From assembly GCA_947504705.1 (NCBI GenBank), contig CANNIA010000003.1:124001-188000 (forward strand): a stretch of 64,000 nucleotides of DNA, given 5' to 3'. A program made the translations under genes and the position numbers. The stretch's first letter is position 1. Every line of letters begins with the position of its first letter. The DNA comes from Paracoccaceae bacterium (lineage in GTDB: Bacteria; Pseudomonadota; Alphaproteobacteria; Rhodobacterales; Rhodobacteraceae). Below are positions 15,320 through 23,162 of the stretch, piece after piece. A model generated the notes under the pieces. That model worked only from the letters and a program-made list of their open reading frames with translations. It ran no database searches and had not been told where the DNA came from.

Positions 15320-16057
15320 CTAACTTAAAAATGGCATGCAATCTGCCAAGTATTTCATGTCAAAGATCTGAACCCCACCTTCGTCGATGTTCTCAATTGT
15401 AACTCCGGAAACATTTGGTATCGATCCGGCAGGCAACGAAAATCCATAGTAATAGATGTCGCCTTTCCCAAGAAGGAATTCCCCCAGTATACTTCCGTCA
15501 TCTGCGTAGAAGATCACTCCGATGGGGCCTCTCATGTAATTTCCGGAGATCGGCCGCAGGGGGGTATTCACGCGTGCTTTGAATCCGAACTGGCAGATGG
15601 GTTCATCGAAACGAATGGCGACGGATCCTGCCCCGACTTGCTGTTTCCCGAATTCTGTAACACCCGCAATAAAGCTTGTGCCCTTATCGTTCTTGTCCAG
15701 GATCCCGGTCCAGAGATTTGCTCCGCCAGAGTCAAACTGAAGGGTCAAGGGAGAGTTGGGCTGGCCAACCAGATCGTCGAATTTCTCCCCATAGAAATCG
15801 CGCTCGGTAATGGCCAATCCTTCGAAGGACTTTCCGATCTCACCACCGCTGAAATAAATGGGGTCACCTGCGGGGCCGCTTTGCCCTGTCGTGGAAGAGG
15901 ACTGATCCACCCAAATTGCTGGGGGCACCGGAATGGCACCATACGGGACAATCCCCATGTCCTGCGCAGCCACGGAACTTAAGTCGAAGAAAGCCAAGCC
16001 CAATGCCAGAAAGGTTCTTGGAATGAATGCCTTAGCCATCGCCCAAATAACTTTCAT
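15320..16057 (-). CDS. Secreted hypothetical protein, AT-richer than its neighbours
   Basis: 245 residues (239 if the Met at 16039 is used). A signal peptide runs FIPRTFLALGLAFFDLSSVAA then QDMG. The mature part is beta-rich, with Gly/Asp/Phe-rich strands (TLQFDSGGANLWTGILDK, GVIFYADDGSILGEF) like extracellular or PEP-CTERM-associated beta-sandwich proteins, but there is no C-terminal sorting signal. Codon use is visibly less GC-biased than in flanking genes, suggesting transfer. No family is recognised. Confidence 0.6.
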   Translation of the reverse strand: MKVIWAMAKAFIPRTFLALGLAFFDLSSVAAQDMGIVPYGAIPVPPAIWVDQSSSTTGQSGPAGDPIYFSGGEIGKSFEGLAITERDFYGEKFDDLVGQPNSPLTLQFDSGGANLWTGILDKNDKGTSFIAGVTEFGKQQVGAGSVAIRFDEPICQFGFKARVNTPLRPISGNYMRGPIGVIFYADDGSILGEFLLGKGDIYYYGFSLPAGSIPNVSGVTIENIDEGGVQIFDMKYLADCMPFLS

Positions 16058-16360
16058 GTTTCCTGTGGTTGCAAGTTTACGACCACGCTTGCCTGGATGG
16101 AAAGGGTGAATCGGAGAGAGCTTGAGGGTTCTTCCACTCTATTCGACCGTTGGTCTTGGGGTTTGATCTTTCAGCATAGGGCGATCTTCATCTTGACCAA
16201 AAGTTTGTCCTAAACCTTAACAAACCCCTAACGCCCACAGCTAACCGATTGAAACCTCACATCCTTCCAAATCCGACCAGCGTGGACACAACCCAGCACC
16301 TTGCCTGCCCGCCCCCGACCCGCTAGGAAACCGGGGAACCCTTTTCAGGCAGGCCAAAAG
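16058..16360. other. Intergenic region upstream of proS
   Basis: About 300 bases, AT-richer on its left half. It contains the divergent promoters for proS (+) and the secreted hypothetical protein (-), but I see no convincing -35/-10 pair, T-box or other structured leader. The frame of proS is open upstream to 16301, but that extension has no ProRS character. Confidence 0.4.
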
Positions 16361-17698
16361 ATGCGTCTCTCCCGCTACTTCCTCCCCGTCCTCAAGGAAA
16401 ACCCCGCCGAGGCCCAGATCGTTTCCCACCGCTACATGCTGCGGGCCGGGATGATCAAGCAGCAGGCCGCGGGGATCTATTCCTGGCTGCCGCTGGGCCT
16501 GAAGGTCCTCCGCCGGATCGAAGCCATCGTGAACGAGGAACAGGAACGCGCGGGCCACATCCCCCTGTTGATGCCCACCCTCCAGCCCGCCGACCTCTGG
16601 CGGGAAAGCGGTCGCTATGACGACTACGGGCAGGAGATGCTGCGGATCAAGGACCGGCAGGACCGCGAGATGCTGTACGGCCCGACGAACGAAGAGATGA
16701 TCACCGACATCTTCCGGTCCCATGTCAGCAGCTACAAGGACCTGCCGCTGACCCTTTACCACATCCAGTGGAAGTTCCGCGACGAGATGCGCCCCCGGTT
16801 CGGCGTGATGCGGGGGCGTGAGTTCCTGATGAAGGACGGCTACAACTTCGACGTCGACAAGGCCGCCGCCCTGCACGCCTACAACCGCCACATGGTCAGC
16901 TACCTGCGCACCTATGAACGCATGGGCCTGACCGCGATCCCGATGCGGGCGGCTTCGGGGCCGATCGGGGGCGACAATACGCATGAATTCCTGGTGCTGG
17001 CCCAGACGGGCGAGTCCGAGGTCTTCTACGACGACCGCGTGACCAGCCTGACGCTTGGCCAGCGCGAGATCGACTATGATGACCGGACCCAGGTCGCAGA
17101 TGTCTGCAAGGAATTCACCACCCTTTACGCCCGCACCGACGAGACCCACGATCAGGCGGTCTTCGATCAGGTTCCCGAGGCCCACCGCAAGGTTGGCCGC
17201 GGGATCGAAGTTGGGCAGATCTTCTATTTCGGGACCAAGTATTCCGATGCCATGGGGGCTGAAGTCACCACTGCCGAGGGCACGAAGGTTCCGGTCGAGA
17301 TGGGCAGCCACGGCATCGGCGTTTCCCGCCTGCTGGGCGCGATCATCGAGGCCTCTCACGACGACAAAGGGATTATCTGGCCGGAAGGCGTGACGCCGTT
17401 CCCGGTTGGGATCGTGAATCTGAAGCAGGGTGACAGCGCCGCCGATGCCGCCTGCGAGGGGCTTTACAAGGCCTTGGCCGCCAAGGGGCTCGAGGCCCTC
17501 TATGACGACCGCGACGAACGGGCGGGCGCGAAGTTCGCCACGATGGACCTGATCGGCCTGCCTTGGCGGATCACCGTAGGCCCGCGCGGGCTGGCGAATG
17601 GGGTAGTTGAACTGACCTCGCGCCGCACCGGCGTCAGCGAGGAGATGTCGCCGGAATCCGCCGTCGACCGCATCGCGCAGATCTACGCGGGAGTTTGA
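16361..17698 (+). CDS. proS: Prolyl-tRNA synthetase
   Basis: 445 residues, the short class II ProRS typical of Alphaproteobacteria, lacking the YbaK-like editing insertion. Motif 1 lies near the N-terminus ([20 protein letters not shown]), motif 2 is [20 protein letters not shown] and motif 3 is [15 protein letters not shown]. The anticodon-binding domain is at the C-terminus, ending [13 protein letters not shown] chose the ATG at 16361 ([15 protein letters not shown]) as the conserved start. The 3' end of this gene is found again, diverged, at about 18229-18280 and 20083-20198, with unrelated genes between. The usual neighbour lolC is displaced about 4.2 kb downstream. Confidence 0.96.
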
Positions 17699-17702
17699 TG
17701 TC

Positions 17703-18197
17703 ATGCTGGGCCGGATAATTATCTTTGCGGGCGGCCTTTCCGGCGCAGTTACGTTGTCGCAGTTTCCGGAGTTTTCGCAGCAGTACTTGCAACGTTTGGC
17801 AGGACAGGTCGAGGCTTTGGCGCGGGTCGAGGCAGATTTCGACCAGTCCGCCGACCGCGCCGGGCTTACCCGTGACCAAGCACTAGCGGAACTTGGCACC
17901 AGTGGTTTTTCCGGCCAGCATGCCAAGGATCTTCAAGCGACATTTGCCCGGGCTGACGGACTTCGGTCCGATCTGGCGTTGCTTCGCCTGGCCGGGGTCT
18001 ACGAACGTCTGATGATGCCGCACCGAATGGCAGACGGCGAGCTTTTGCAAGCGACCTGGGCCGATTTCGTACCGGCCGTTCCGGTTTCGGTCGCAGGTGG
18101 GGTTTGTTCCGGTTTGGGCTTTCTGGCAGGCTGGGCCTTGGTTAGGGCCGCGCTCACGCTGTTGCTTTGGCCCTTTCGCCGCCGACAGGTCGCCTGA
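17703..18197 (+). CDS. DUF2937-family membrane protein
   Basis: 164 residues starting MLGRIIIFAGGLSGAVTLSQ, then FPEFSQQYLQRLAGQV, the signature of DUF2937. There is an N-terminal hydrophobic segment, a central helical region (ARVEADFDQSADRAGLTRDQ) and a C-terminal transmembrane stretch (VAGGVCSGLGFLAGWALVRA) ending in basic residues. Function unknown. It begins 4 bases after the proS stop and is followed by a short sequence resembling the proS 3' end. Confidence 0.82.
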   Translation: MLGRIIIFAGGLSGAVTLSQFPEFSQQYLQRLAGQVEALARVEADFDQSADRAGLTRDQALAELGTSGFSGQHAKDLQATFARADGLRSDLALLRLAGVYERLMMPHRMADGELLQATWADFVPAVPVSVAGGVCSGLGFLAGWALVRAALTLLLWPFRRRQVA

Positions 18198-18226
18198 CCG
18201 GTTGCCGCATGAGCGACCCCAAGGCA

Positions 18227-18280
18227 ATGCTTCCCGACGCCAATGTCTACCGGGCGGTCCAGATCTACGCCGAGCGCTAA
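18227..18280 (+). pseudogene. Remnant of proS 3' end (short, copy 2)
   Basis: The last 18 codons before TAA at 18278-18280 read MLPDANVYRAVQIYAER, which lines up without gaps to [17 protein letters not shown] of the other remnant; by hand 40 of 54 bases agree. It lies 30 bases after the DUF2937 gene. A 23-codon open frame (ATG at 18209) contains it, but with no ribosome site and no independent gene character. I interpret it as a decayed proS tail. Confidence 0.6.
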
Positions 18281-18307
18281 GGAGCGGGACATAGCGAAGC
18301 TTGATCA

Positions 18308-18330
18308 GGCACCCTTTCGGGTGCCGGTTT
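18308..18330 (-). terminator. Hairpin downstream of the DUF4166 gene
   Basis: A perfect 7-bp stem (18308-18314 with 18319-18325) and a 4-base loop lie between the proS tail remnant and the convergent saccharopine-dehydrogenase-like gene. The T-run is short (GGTTT on the plus strand), so termination efficiency is uncertain; it could serve both directions. Confidence 0.5.
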
Positions 18331-18346
18331 CATTCCGTCTGGCCCA

Positions 18347-20020
18347 TCAGACTGTGTCAGCCTTGACCGGCTCCAGCCAGCCATCATAGCGCACCACCGG
18401 GCCGATCAGGGGCAGGATGATCTGAACGTGAAAGCGGAAGCGGCCGTCTTGCACGTCCTCCCAAGCCGGTCCGTGCGGCATCAGCCAGAGTGGCAGCGGC
18501 AGGGGGCCGATCCCCCAGCGGCGGGGGATGATCTGCAGGCGGGTGCCGTCCCAATCCAGCGCCAGGCCAAAGCGGAAGGGGCCGAAGCGTTCGACGATCA
18601 GGGCGGCATCGCGGCCAGAGCCTGCCTCTTGGGTGGAGCGCATCGGTTGCGCCCCAAAGCGTCGGGTCCAGGTTTCGCGGCCCTGCGGATCGGTCGTGAA
18701 GGTCACTTCGACCGGCTGGCCAAAGCCCGCTTTGGGAAAGCGGAAGAGGGTGGCGACCAGCAAGGCCATCAGGTTTTTGCCGCGTGTCACCTCGGCCCTT
18801 CCGCGCCAGACCGACCGGGGGCCGGGGCGGTGCAGCTGCTGCAAAAGCGGGGGCAGGTCGTCAAAGATCGGGCCAAGGGTCTGGGGGTAGGGTTCTGGCT
18901 GCGCCCCCTCACGCCAGCCGGTCACGATGGTGCGCCCGACGAAGGCGGTCATGTAGTCGTCCAGCGTCAGGGCGCCGATCCCGGCGCGGGCACCGGGGGC
19001 GGGGGGCAAACCCTGTTGCATCTTGCTGACCAACAAGGCCACGGCCATCGAAGGGATCAGCGGGCCATCGTCGCCTTCGGCCAGAAGATGCCAGGAAAGC
19101 TGGGCAGGCTGGCCATCGCGCAGGCCCTTGGCCGCAAGGAACATGCCACCGCGATGTTCGCCCATCGGGCGCAGGTTCAACAGCCAGTGCGCAATCGGGG
19201 CCAAGGGGGCAAGCGAGGGCAGGTGCAGCTTGGCGCGGGCCAGTGCCAGCAGGGTTAGCAACCGGTGCAGAAAGCGTGGCTGTGGTGCGGCGCCCAACCA
19301 GAGGGATTGCAGCTCGGGATGGGCCGGGGGCAGGATACGCAGGTCGGGCACATCGACCAGCGAAAAGCGCAGGGGCTGCAGTGGGACCTTGCCCGGCACG
19401 GCGACGGTCGCAATCAGGCTTTCGCCAAGCCCGATGCCGGCTGAAGGCTTGCCCTGTCGCCACAGCCGGACCGGCGCGCCAGCATAGCTCAAGACCGCGC
19501 GCAAGACGTTCAGCCCTACCCCGGCATAGGGCGAGGGGGCGATGCCGCCGGTCAATTCGGTCACCGTCAGGCGCGTTTCCATTTCGGTCAGGACGGCATG
19601 GGTCAGGACCGGAAAGCTGGAGACCCCGGCAAGAACAAAGACCCCTGCCGCGCGGGCCTCAGCATCTAAGGCGCTGATCCCGGAAACGAAATCCGCCCCG
19701 TCGGCGAGGTCAAGATAGGGCAAGCGGGCAGCGATGGCGGCTTTGGGGACCAGATAGGGATCGGTGCCGTAGGCCTGAAACGGGCCGGAGGCGTCGACGA
19801 TCAGATCGGGTCGGTGCTGGGCCAAAGCCGAAGCGACATCGTGGCGATCAAGGGCCAGAGGCAGGGCCATAGCCGCCCCGCCAAGGGTTTCGGCAAAGAT
19901 GCGGGCCTTCCCGCCGTCGCGACCCGCAAGCAGCAGGGTCAGGCTTGGGTCGTCTTTCAAAAGCTGGGCAAGTCTGCCGCCAAAGACACCATAGCCGCCA
20001 AGAACAAGGATCCTCATCAT
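18347..20020 (-). CDS. Saccharopine dehydrogenase-like protein with C-terminal DUF4166
   Basis: 557 residues. The N-terminal Rossmann motif [20 protein letters not shown] binds NAD(P), and the pattern through [13 protein letters not shown] and [11 protein letters not shown] is that of saccharopine dehydrogenase/trans-acting enoyl reductase family proteins. The C-terminal ~180 residues match the DUF4166 layout (GVEVTF, then [20 protein letters not shown] and YDGWLEPV). Reaction unknown. Two adjacent ATGs (20020, 20017) follow AGGGAATT. It is oriented against proS and lies between two proS-tail remnants, so it appears to be part of inserted DNA. Confidence 0.8.
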
Positions 20021-20082
20021 GCAATTCCCTAGGCCTGCGATCTTAGTCGCTGGGTGCGCAGGCGAAAGGGCGCTGATTGTCG

Positions 20083-20198
20083 CGGGTGGGCTGGCCAATG
20101 GCATGGTCGAACTGACCAGCCGCCGCACCGGGGTCAGCGAGCAGATGTCGCCCGAAGTCGCTGTCGACCGGATCGCTCAGATCTACGCCGGGCGCTAA
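20083..20198 (+). pseudogene. Remnant of proS 3' end (copy 3)
   Basis: Thirty-six sense codons plus stop reading [20 protein letters not shown] then [16 protein letters not shown]. Against intact proS (17586-17698) I count 89 of 111 bases and 32 of 36 residues identical, with most base changes silent. It has no start and no upstream ProRS sequence, so it is a 3' fragment of a second proS allele. The fact that the stop and last codons are intact suggests this was once a functional gene end. It is followed immediately by an 18-bp tandem repeat. Confidence 0.88.
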
Positions 20199-20231
20199 GC
20201 TGTCGCTGGGCGCTAAGCTGTCGCCGGGCGG
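20190..20231. repeat. 18-bp tandem repeat at end of proS remnant
   Basis: The last bases of the proS remnant, GGGCGCTAAGCTGTCGCT, are repeated directly (20190-20207 and 20208-20225), with a degenerate third unit GGGCGGTTAG overlapping the stop of the convergent oxidoreductase gene at 20232. Confidence 0.75.
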
Positions 20232-21206
20232 TTAGTCGCCGCCCGCCACCATCTCGACCACCAGATTGCCCGGCTTGTGGAAGCTTTCGGCAATCGCGTG
20301 GGCTTTGCGAAGGTCGGCAAAGGGCAGCATCTGGCCAAGGGCAGGGCGGTAGCCCCCGGCTTGGTGCAGATCAACAAGCCGCTGCATTGCCGCTTTCGTC
20401 TCGCGGTTCATGCTGGCGATGACGCGGCGGCCCGACCGGCGCGGCCAGAGACCCGCGCCGATCATTTGGCCAAGGGTGGCTGTGATCAGCACAAGCCGCC
20501 CATCTGGGGGCAGAAGCGGGCGGGCGCCTTTCCAGCCAAGCCCGCCCATGACATCGATGATTGCGTCAAACGGTCCCGGGGGCGGTGGGTCCCGGTAATC
20601 GGCAACAGTGTCGGCCCCAAGGCGGCGCGCCAGATCGTGGTTGGCGGGTGAAGCAAGTGCCGTTACCTCGGCTCCTAGATGGTGGGCAATCTGTACAGCG
20701 GCGCTGCCGACCGATCCGGTTGCGCCCGCGACCAGCACCCGCTTGCCCGGCCCGACCATGGCTTCGTCGATCACCGCCTGCGCAGCGGTAAGCCCGCCAA
20801 AGAAGAAGGCTGCGCCCTCGGCCAGGGACAGGCTTTCGGGCAGGGGCAGTACAAGTCCGTCAGCCTTGACCAGGAGATACTCGCGATGCGTGCCGCCGGG
20901 AAAACCCAGAATGCCAAAGACCCGGGCGCCGTCGCGAAAGTCGGTCACCCCCGCGCCAAGCCCGGCGATGGTGCCGGAAAAGGACCAGCCCGGGGCATTC
21001 TTTGGACGCCGAAGGCCAATTACCAGCCGTAGGATAAACCCCATTCCTCGCGGCACCTTGCCGGAACGCATGCGCGCATCCCCTGCGGTGACCGGCGCGG
21101 CATGGACCCGGATCAGCAGCTCGCTGGGCCCCGGGGTCGGGATCGGGGCGTCTTCGAGCGCAATGGTTTCCGGGCCGCCATAGGCGGTGTAGCGGGCAAC
21201 CTTCAT
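20232..21206 (-). CDS. NAD(P)H:quinone oxidoreductase-like MDR protein
   Basis: 324 residues, zinc-independent medium-chain dehydrogenase/reductase. N-terminal GroES-like domain (MKVARYTAYGGPETIALEDA) and a nucleotide-binding Rossmann domain with VLVAGATGSVGSAAVQIAHH. The zinc-ligating Cys/His set of alcohol dehydrogenases is absent, placing it with quinone oxidoreductase/crotonyl-type reductases. Cytoplasmic. Its stop abuts the tandem repeat after the proS remnant. Substrate unknown. Confidence 0.88.
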   Translation of the reverse strand: MKVARYTAYGGPETIALEDAPIPTPGPSELLIRVHAAPVTAGDARMRSGKVPRGMGFILRLVIGLRRPKNAPGWSFSGTIAGLGAGVTDFRDGARVFGILGFPGGTHREYLLVKADGLVLPLPESLSLAEGAAFFFGGLTAAQAVIDEAMVGPGKRVLVAGATGSVGSAAVQIAHHLGAEVTALASPANHDLARRLGADTVADYRDPPPPGPFDAIIDVMGGLGWKGARPLLPPDGRLVLITATLGQMIGAGLWPRRSGRRVIASMNRETKAAMQRLVDLHQAGGYRPALGQMLPFADLRKAHAIAESFHKPGNLVVEMVAGGD

Positions 21207-21267
21207 GGTGCCTCCTCGTGGCAGGTGAAGTCCGCGTCGAGCCTTGCGCCAATGGCGCGGGCGATAC

Positions 21268-21302
21268 GGAAAAATGCACAGGCCGGGCTTGAGCCCGGCC
21301 TG
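21268..21302 (-). terminator. Rho-independent terminator after the small lipoprotein gene
   Basis: An 11-bp perfect stem with a 2-base loop (21279-21289 with 21292-21302). On the minus strand it is followed by TGCATTTTTCC, giving a five-T run, so it should terminate transcription of the lipoprotein gene at 21351-21620. A smaller GC-rich hairpin lies just before it near 21318-21338. Confidence 0.8.
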
Positions 21303-21350
21303 CCAATCCGTCTTGGTCGCGCGCCCGGCACCGGGCGAGCGCGAGCAACA

Positions 21351-21620
21351 TTACTTCGACAGCTCAGCCATCATTTCGTCGATGGCCTTGCAGGTGGCGT
21401 CCAGATCGTCGCCAGCAGCGGCGGCTTTGGTCGACAGCTCGGTCAGCTTCGGGGTCAGTTCCGCCAGCTTGGCGGGGTCGGTGGTCCCAATTTCGGTGAC
21501 CTTGGCGCTCAGGTCGGTGACCTTTTTCTGAGCATCTTCCTTGGTGCAGCTCGGCTCGCTGTTGCAGGCAGCAAGCAGGCCGATAGCGGTGATGACGGCG
21601 AGATTCAGTGCGATACGCAT
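21351..21620 (-). CDS. Small helical lipoprotein
   Basis: 89 residues. The N-terminus MRIALNLAVITAIGLLAACN carries a lipobox (LLAAC), so it is probably lipidated and exported. The rest is a charged, helical, coiled-coil-like segment (KVTDLSAKVTEIGTTDPAKL, TPKLTELSTKAAAAGDDLDA) with two further Cys. The ATG at 21620 follows GAGGATTGCC. No family recognised. Confidence 0.75.
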   Translation of the reverse strand: MRIALNLAVITAIGLLAACNSEPSCTKEDAQKKVTDLSAKVTEIGTTDPAKLAELTPKLTELSTKAAAAGDDLDATCKAIDEMMAELSK

Positions 21621-21866
21621 GGCAATCCTCAATGGTTAAGTTTGTTTCAACGCGGTCCGGATAGACCCAAGCCCAAAATGGGTCAAGGTTAGGGATACAC
21701 CACCTTGTGATTGATTTCTGCAGGCCTGCCCCGGATTGGCGAAAATTTGCGCGCGGGGTTCACGGTCCGATCACCCCCCTTTGCCTTGACCTTTCCGGCC
21801 CTGTCCCGCAGGTTGCCCTGCAAGAAGGCCCCAATCAATCGGCCCCCAATCAATCAAGCGTGGCAG

Positions 21867-23162
21867 ATGGCAACGAAAACCTCTTCATTTTCAGGCTACG
21901 AATTCATGATCGCCTGGCGCTACCTGCGTGCGCGCCGCGCCGAGGGTGGGGTCTCGGTGATGACCTGGATCAGCGTGATCGGCATCTCCTTGGCCGTCTT
22001 TGCCCTGATCGCGACCATGGCGGTGCGGGCGGGGTTCCGGGCGGAATTCGTCAACACGATCCTGGGTGCGAACGCGCATGTCTCGGTCTATTCAGTGGGC
22101 GAGTTTGGCCCCGACGGCGAAAACTTGCGCGGTTTTGGAAATTATGACCCGATTGCCGAGGTTTTGGCGGCGGTGCCGGGGGTTACAGCAGCCGCCCCGG
22201 TAGTGCGGACGCAAGTGATGATCTCAACCGGAGAGCGCAATTCCGGGGTCGAGGTGGTTGGCATCACGGCAGCTGACTACGTGGCCATTCCGGCAATGAC
22301 TGCGGGTGGTGATGACCTTGGCGACATTGGCCAGTTTGACACTAGCATCGAGAGCATCGCGCTGGGCTCGGGCGTTGCTCGGGAGCTTGGGGTGACGCTG
22401 GGCGACAGGGTGCGGCTGACTTCGCCCAATGGGGTGAAGACGGCGATGGGGTCCTCGCCCCGGGTGAATGCCTATACGGTCACCTATATCTTCACCACCG
22501 GCAGCCCCGATATCGACCGCGTCCGCGCCTATCTGCCGCTGGCCGAAGCGCAAGGCTTCTTCAATATGGAAGGACGGATTGACGAGTTTCAGGTCACTGT
22601 CGCCAATCCCGAAGAGATCGACAGTTACGCCAATGATCTGCTGATGGCGGCTGGCCCTTCGGCGATGCTGTGGAGCTGGAAGGACAGTTCCGGCAACTTC
22701 CTGCGCGCGCTGACGGTCGAGGACAACATGATGTTCATCCTGATGTCGATCCTTGTCCTGATCGCCGCGATGAACATCATTTCGGGGCTGGTGATGCTGG
22801 TGAAAAACAAGGGCCGCGACATCGGCATCCTGCGGACGATGGGCCTGACCGAAGGGGCGGTGCTGCGGATCTTCTTTCTGTGCGGGTCGTTTACCGGGCT
22901 GGCCGGCACCATCCTTGGGATCGCCATAGGTTGCCTCTTCGCGCTTTATTTCACGCCGATATTCGATTTCATCAACTGGGCGGCGGGCGGCGGGGTCTGG
23001 GACCCAACGGTGCGTCCGATTTATCATCTGACCGCCAAGCTGCAGGCGGGTGACGTGCTGTCGGCGGCTCTGCTGTCGCTGGGGCTGTCCTTTGTCGTCA
23101 CTCTGTTGCCCGCCCGCCGTGCCGCAAGGATGAACCCGGTCGAGGCGCTGCGCTATGAGTGA
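21867..23162 (+). CDS. lolC: Lipoprotein-releasing ABC transporter permease LolC/LolE
   Basis: 431 residues. It extracts lipoproteins from the inner membrane for the Lol pathway, together with LolD. The family opening is visible as [14 protein letters not shown], with a transmembrane segment [20 protein letters not shown], a large periplasmic domain (~220 residues), and three C-terminal helices beginning [20 protein letters not shown]. The MacB/FtsX-type ending [16 protein letters not shown] is present. The ATG at 21867 was chosen by family length; an upstream in-frame extension lacks resemblance. It overlaps lolD by 8 bases. Confidence 0.93.

Follow-up and report, generated by a model that had tools for sequence, protein, structure and literature searches.

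In Escherichia coli, phage 21 and e14 integrate in the 3′ end of icd. A locus with a similar layout is present in genome G000, a Paracoccaceae bacterium from a Tabrizicola-like genus, whose nearest named relatives in a proS search include Rhodobacter sp. SY28-1 and Tabrizicola flagellatus. The window analysed is a 64,000-nt stretch of this genome (contig C3, positions 124001-188000). It contains an intact proS gene, encoding prolyl-tRNA synthetase, and two diverged copies of the proS 3′ end (hereafter tails or scars) lying between proS and lolC with other genes around them. The copies are real and are most likely traces of recombination between species. As at icd, inserted DNA would separate a housekeeping gene from a diverged version of its 3′ end. 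Unlike at icd, no integrase was identified among the Pfam matches of the interval genes, which comprise DUF2937, DUF4166 and dehydrogenase domains, with one small gene having no match. Also unlike at icd, nothing points to separate origins for the intact tail and the 3′ part of the gene body, although the tail was not tested alone.

Sequential displacement of type VI secretion system (T6SS) effector genes in Vibrio cholerae has been modelled as homology-facilitated illegitimate recombination, and in the accessible part of that study displaced 3′ genes come to lie in rows as the events recur (PMC5361080). The mechanism favoured here for proS would resemble it in recurrent exchange, an anchor on one side, illegitimate joining on the other and 3′ pieces lying in a row. 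As far as the same part of the Vibrio account goes, whole orphan immunity genes are kept there and the anchor lies upstream, whereas the pieces left here are non-coding ends of a housekeeping gene and proS itself looks native. Recombination of this type has also been seen in laboratory crosses (PMC3240628, in the portion available to us). Both cases would involve a linear fragment with homologous joining at one end and illegitimate joining at the other, but the process was demonstrated in the laboratory there and is deduced here from an old end state. In Rhodobacter, RcGTA particles carry fragments of approximately 4.5 kb that replace alleles, according to the consulted part of the source (PMC9690577). 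Fragments of the size given there would suit the locus, but nothing links such particles to the proS-lolC interval. TIGR02217, which we take to be a gene-transfer-agent gene, was not found in G000 and is present in 28 of the 32 genus genomes searched; its absence neither backs nor rules out the receipt of transfer-agent DNA. A literature search on recombination in Tabrizicola or at proS, and on replacement that leaves truncated copies, found no account of this locus. The type of event is already known, and the proS scars are one more instance of it.

Two diverged copies of the proS end

The features of the locus are as follows, with lolD located after lolC on the same strand.

16361-17698, + strand: intact proS, prolyl-tRNA synthetase (PF00587, PF03129); judged native from trees built by halves
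17703-18197, + strand: DUF2937 gene (PF11157), ancestral neighbour of proS
18227-18280, + strand: short decayed proS tail, 54 nt, ending in a TAA stop; 40/54 nt identical to the long copy, in frame
18347-20020, − strand: DUF4166/saccharopine-dehydrogenase-like gene (PF13761)
20083-20198, + strand: long proS tail remnant, 116 nt, ending in a TAA stop; 88/111 nt and 32/37 residues identical to the intact tail
20186-20242, + strand: 18-bp direct repeats of the long remnant's stop region (repeat family D2, from the repeat search of the window)
20232-21206, − strand: QOR, quinone-reductase-like dehydrogenase (PF13602, PF08240)
21351-21632, − strand: small gene without Pfam match, lipoprotein-like by its N-terminus in our own judgement; common to G030 and G021
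21858-23162, + strand: lolC, start putative (PF12704, PF02687)
18201-21773: stretch absent from the DUF2937-lolC order of G008; homology to G008 stops at 18200 and resumes at 21774

An earlier note on this DNA, made from the sequence alone, had reported copies of the proS end downstream of the intact gene. The analysis bears this out. A repeat search of the window pairs 17583-17691 with 20083-20191 (83% identity over 109 nt). The in-frame alignment of 17585-17695 with 20085-20195 has 23 differences, so that the similarity reported earlier stands while its counts, 89 of 111 bases and 32 of 36 residues, are corrected to those listed above. When the proS end is used as query against the whole genome, the intact gene and the long copy are the only matches; the long copy as query also recovers the short copy (E value 5e-4). 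The short copy, which shares its stop with the long copy, is known through the long copy, since it matches the intact tail at 31 of 54 positions, hardly better than unrelated 54-mers do (the best on both strands of the window reach 31 with the long copy as query and 30 with the intact tail). Its earlier description as equal to the proS tail is therefore not accurate. The gene names proposed earlier agree with the Pfam assignments, and lolC does lie past the last remnant, with the reversed QOR gene in between.

The left seam of the long copy is clear-cut: homology between the spacer upstream of DUF4166 and genome G030 runs to base 20085, where proS sequence starts, and the two homologies overlap by approximately three bases (20083-20085). 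No extra proS tail was found in the other proS-bearing stretches (132 sequences including the window, with some genomes represented more than once and flanks of varying length), and recurrence at the same site, as in the icd/e14 type, was not seen in these relatives. The D2 tandem repeats have a period of 18 bp, with two copies at 95-100% identity and a third at 76%, and are located just before the QOR stop.

Of the codon differences between the intact tail and the long copy, 11 are silent and 5 replacing, where neutral change would be expected to give 4.3 and 14.4. None of 5000 neutral simulations (transitions weighted 2) gave so few replacing changes. To judge from this codon pattern, the two sequences diverged under protein-level selection. 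Their distance of 23 nt is also ordinary for the genus, where pairs have a median of 25 nt and a 5-95% range of 14 to 35. The coding-type pattern and the species-level distance together suggest that the long copy diverged mostly as the working proS of another lineage. The earlier view of it as a diverged allele rather than a recent slip is thus supported, as is the involvement of recombination between lineages. Comparison of the long and short copies gives 0 silent and 8 replacing codon differences (neutral expectation 2.1 and 8.6), near to neutral, which means that one copy or both decayed while not serving as a gene. Neither scar has a coding role any longer, and decay has gone further in the short one.

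Both remnants end in Arg-TAA-G. An Arg-TAA ending occurs in none of the 10 proS genes of clade A, the clade of G000 defined below; those of G008 and G028 end in Arg-TAG and the remaining 8 in Val or Ile. A TAA stop is found in only 1 of 29 proS genes of the genus (G007). Because this unusual ending is shared, the two scars probably derive from the same or very similar alleles.

Affinity of the intact proS and its neighbours

A species tree was built from rpoB, gyrB, alaS and uvrA for 29 genomes (without G011, G014 and G027; several genomes lack one marker, in G030 rpoB). In this tree G000 groups with G030 (support 99), then with G006 (89), inside clade A (100), which contains G000, G030, G006, G008, G022, G028, G013, G005, G024 and G012. 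Clade B contains the rest except G015. G030 is the sister species of G000, and the gyrB and alaS single-gene trees each unite the two with support of 1.0.

The tree of the whole proS gene rejects G000+G030 (approximately unbiased test, AU, 0.018) and clade A as a whole (AU 6e-6), indicating that proS has often been exchanged. When the gene is split, the conflict is located in its first 600 nt. There, G000 groups with the clade A members G013, G022, G006, G008, G012 and G024 (80), and G030 groups with G017 of clade B (83), with G000+G030 rejected (AU 0.0005). Over the final 738 nt, the closest relative of G000 is G030 (87), with G013 next (77); G000+G013 is not rejected (AU 0.37), and a grouping of G000, G013, G012, G024 and G008 has an AU value of 0.047. 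The intact proS of G000 thus lies with its own clade in the 5′ part and with its sister species in the 3′ part, and the anomalous 5′ part belongs to G030. Under the replacement model of the earlier note, the remnant should follow the species tree and the intact gene should not, or the reverse; the trees by halves lean towards the reverse. Replacement inferred from the whole-gene tree alone was rejected, since the conflict belongs to the 5′ part, where G030 departs.

Other proS genes of the genus also carry signs of exchange. The proS of G030 (L045, 2919-4253) is a mosaic, its two parts grouping as described, and those of G006 (L056) and G022 (L068) group with the other genera G104 and G193 (97), suggesting import. 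The G+C content at third codon positions (GC3) is 0.86 in proS and 0.65 in DUF2937 of G000. This contrast was given no weight, since the proS genes of relatives have high GC3 too.

A DUF2937 match was found in 55 of 199 genomes of the family. The distance to proS was compared in 42 of them, leaving out G000 itself and 12 genomes whose proS coordinates were not among the matches listed. In 37 of these 42, DUF2937 and proS are no more than 3 kb apart, which is not the case in G048, G169, G122, G032 and G035. Among the 32 genus genomes searched, DUF2937 is clear in G000, G008 and G006, and G026 has one weak partial match. The order in G008 is proS, a small open frame, DUF2937 (77% identical to that of G000), lolC and lolD, and lolC directly follows DUF2937 in G008, G143 and G175. 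Upstream of proS, G000 encodes an AI-2E transporter, a PepSY protein, cytochrome b561, a LuxR-type regulator and others; the same genes are present in G015 and partly in G008, and none of them is present in the 15 kb read upstream of proS in G030. The family-wide adjacency and the upstream order suggest that proS and DUF2937 stand in their old order. DUF2937, proposed earlier as a passenger gene, is ruled out as such by its usual place beside proS.

Two further observations concern the region directly upstream. A gene of 245 aa at 15320-16057 (− strand) has a G+C content of 51% and a GC3 of 0.57, against 63% G+C for the window; it has no Pfam match and no counterpart among the stretches of relatives compared. 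The spacer before proS (16209-16330) holds TTAACAAACCCCTAAC and its neighbours, which form a dispersed repeat matching many sites across many genomes of the genus, including G000. Its 16-base core is found once inside the window.

Gene exchange between proS and lolC and the origin of the scars

Compared with G008, G000 has 3573 extra bases, in which both tails lie together with DUF4166, QOR and the small gene; homology to G008 covers the 43 bases that precede lolC. In the other genera G053, G193 and G225, lolC directly follows proS. Among the genus genomes read, the gene set of this interval, or of the stretch downstream of proS, changes from one genome to another, and reversed QOR relatives lie near proS in many of them. 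G030 has the same DUF4166-QOR-small gene-lolC order as G000. DUF4166 genes with 77-82% amino acid identity were found in only G030 (82%) and G015 (77%) of the 31 other genus genomes, in both cases between proS and QOR, and other matches reach at most 44%. In G003 and G009, QOR starts 37 bp past the proS match, similar to the 33 bases between the long tail and QOR in G000. Trees of QOR, lolC and lolD show no close donor, and the QOR and lolC branches of G000 are long. For lolC, the distance at codon positions 1+2 is approximately 0.21 from genus relatives, and that of G030 to the same relatives is approximately 0.10-0.11. The proS-lolC stretch is a frequent site of gene exchange in the genus.

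The leading, still tentative, interpretation is that proS and DUF2937 are native and that the remnants are donor proS ends imported together with cargo genes, joined homologously on one side and illegitimately on the other. The donor would be a related lineage whose cargo genes directly trail its proS, and relatives with cargo directly behind proS (G003 and G009) count in favour of such import. Its DNA would enter between DUF2937 and lolC, with one end, probably the lolC/QOR side, joining by homology and the other by illegitimate joining, so that the last proS codons of the donor would be carried in with the cargo and remain at its left border as a scar. A pair of scars could come from two such events or from a single event and a duplication; the possibility of two steps was raised earlier, and the two remnants do suggest more than one. 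The copies, their seams, the coding-type divergence, the affinity of the intact gene and the differences in gene order are established here; this direction of transfer, the joining mechanism and the order of events are inferred from them.

Several observations weigh against import. The third-position difference of DUF4166 between G000 and G030 is 0.31, similar to the 0.32 of gyrB, and the gene may therefore be inherited rather than newly arrived. The long tail sits between DUF4166 and QOR, a position at which G030 carries no tail, and the QOR tree does not unite G000 with G003 or G009. The uvrA tree lacks G000+G030: there G000 falls in with clade A (0.60) and G030 does not. In the 3′ part of proS (738 nt), the trio of G000, G030 and G013 stands beside clade B, apart from other clade A members; with this caveat, "native" as applied to the intact gene means common to sister species, as far as the trees can tell. 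The tail nearest to the long copy is that of the sister G030 (18 differences), followed by those of G009 and G026 (19 each) and the intact tail of G000 itself (23), a ranking that would also suit a remnant descended from an old resident gene. In the tree of full-length proS, the best position for the remnant is the G030 branch, and the intact gene of G000 is 5.2 log-likelihood units worse (AU 0.316). In the tree of the 3′ part, the remnant fits best at the base of the clade B group, with G030 2.1 and the intact gene of G000 2.8 units worse (AU 0.179). Neither placement is significant, as 111 nt is too little. Finally, no donor with an Arg-TAA tail beside DUF4166 or QOR was found, and the proS of G030 ends in Val-TGA.

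Owing to these points, the model of the earlier note keeps a lesser share of the weight, unlikely as we judge it. In that model a foreign proS, together with DUF2937, replaced the resident gene and left only the resident tail, perhaps twice, each event leaving the tail of its predecessor. It would account for both tails and for their position downstream of proS, it agrees with the best placement of the remnant on G030 in the full tree and with the rejection of G000+G030 by the whole gene, and the Vibrio case is modelled likewise in the accessible part of its account (PMC5361080). That rejection, however, stems from the first 600 nt, where it is G030 that sits with clade B, and in the last 738 nt the two species are sisters. 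With the intact proS native-like and DUF2937 and the upstream genes in ancestral order, a foreign intact gene and a resident remnant are disfavoured, and the direction of transfer proposed earlier is probably reversed. DUF4166 could instead have arrived as a unit bearing a proS tail, perhaps in circular form, through a single crossover or site-specific recombination at a proS 3′ end, which would leave it between direct copies of the tail. The remnants do flank DUF4166 and share their ending, but the lack of an integrase family among the interval genes, the lack of extra tails at other proS loci and the tail-free DUF4166 beside QOR in G030 make this rather improbable. The narrower idea that DUF4166 is a small circularising module whose repeat ends are the two tails, inserting by recombination in a proS 3′ end, is more doubtful still; if true, the proS 3′ end would be a docking point for genes moving between species of the genus.

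An old partial duplication of the gene's own end, diverged in place, is compatible with the AU values for placement of the remnant on its own proS branch. In a non-coding duplicate, most codon changes would be expected to be replacing, the reverse of the 11 silent and 5 replacing differences that no neutral simulation matched, and we therefore regard such a duplication as improbable. An assembly error is highly improbable, given the 21% difference between the copies and the matching downstream order in G030. The region also lies inside a 190-kb contig, and the assembly is rated at 99.9% completeness and 0.09% contamination.

Diverged gene ends beside a core gene are a record of past exchange among species, one that ordinary annotation overlooks as the pieces are short and non-coding. 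The gain from a single locus is modest; such scars could help to date exchanges and reveal their direction. Within the genus, both the proS-lolC interval and the proS gene, a mosaic in at least one species, change hands often.

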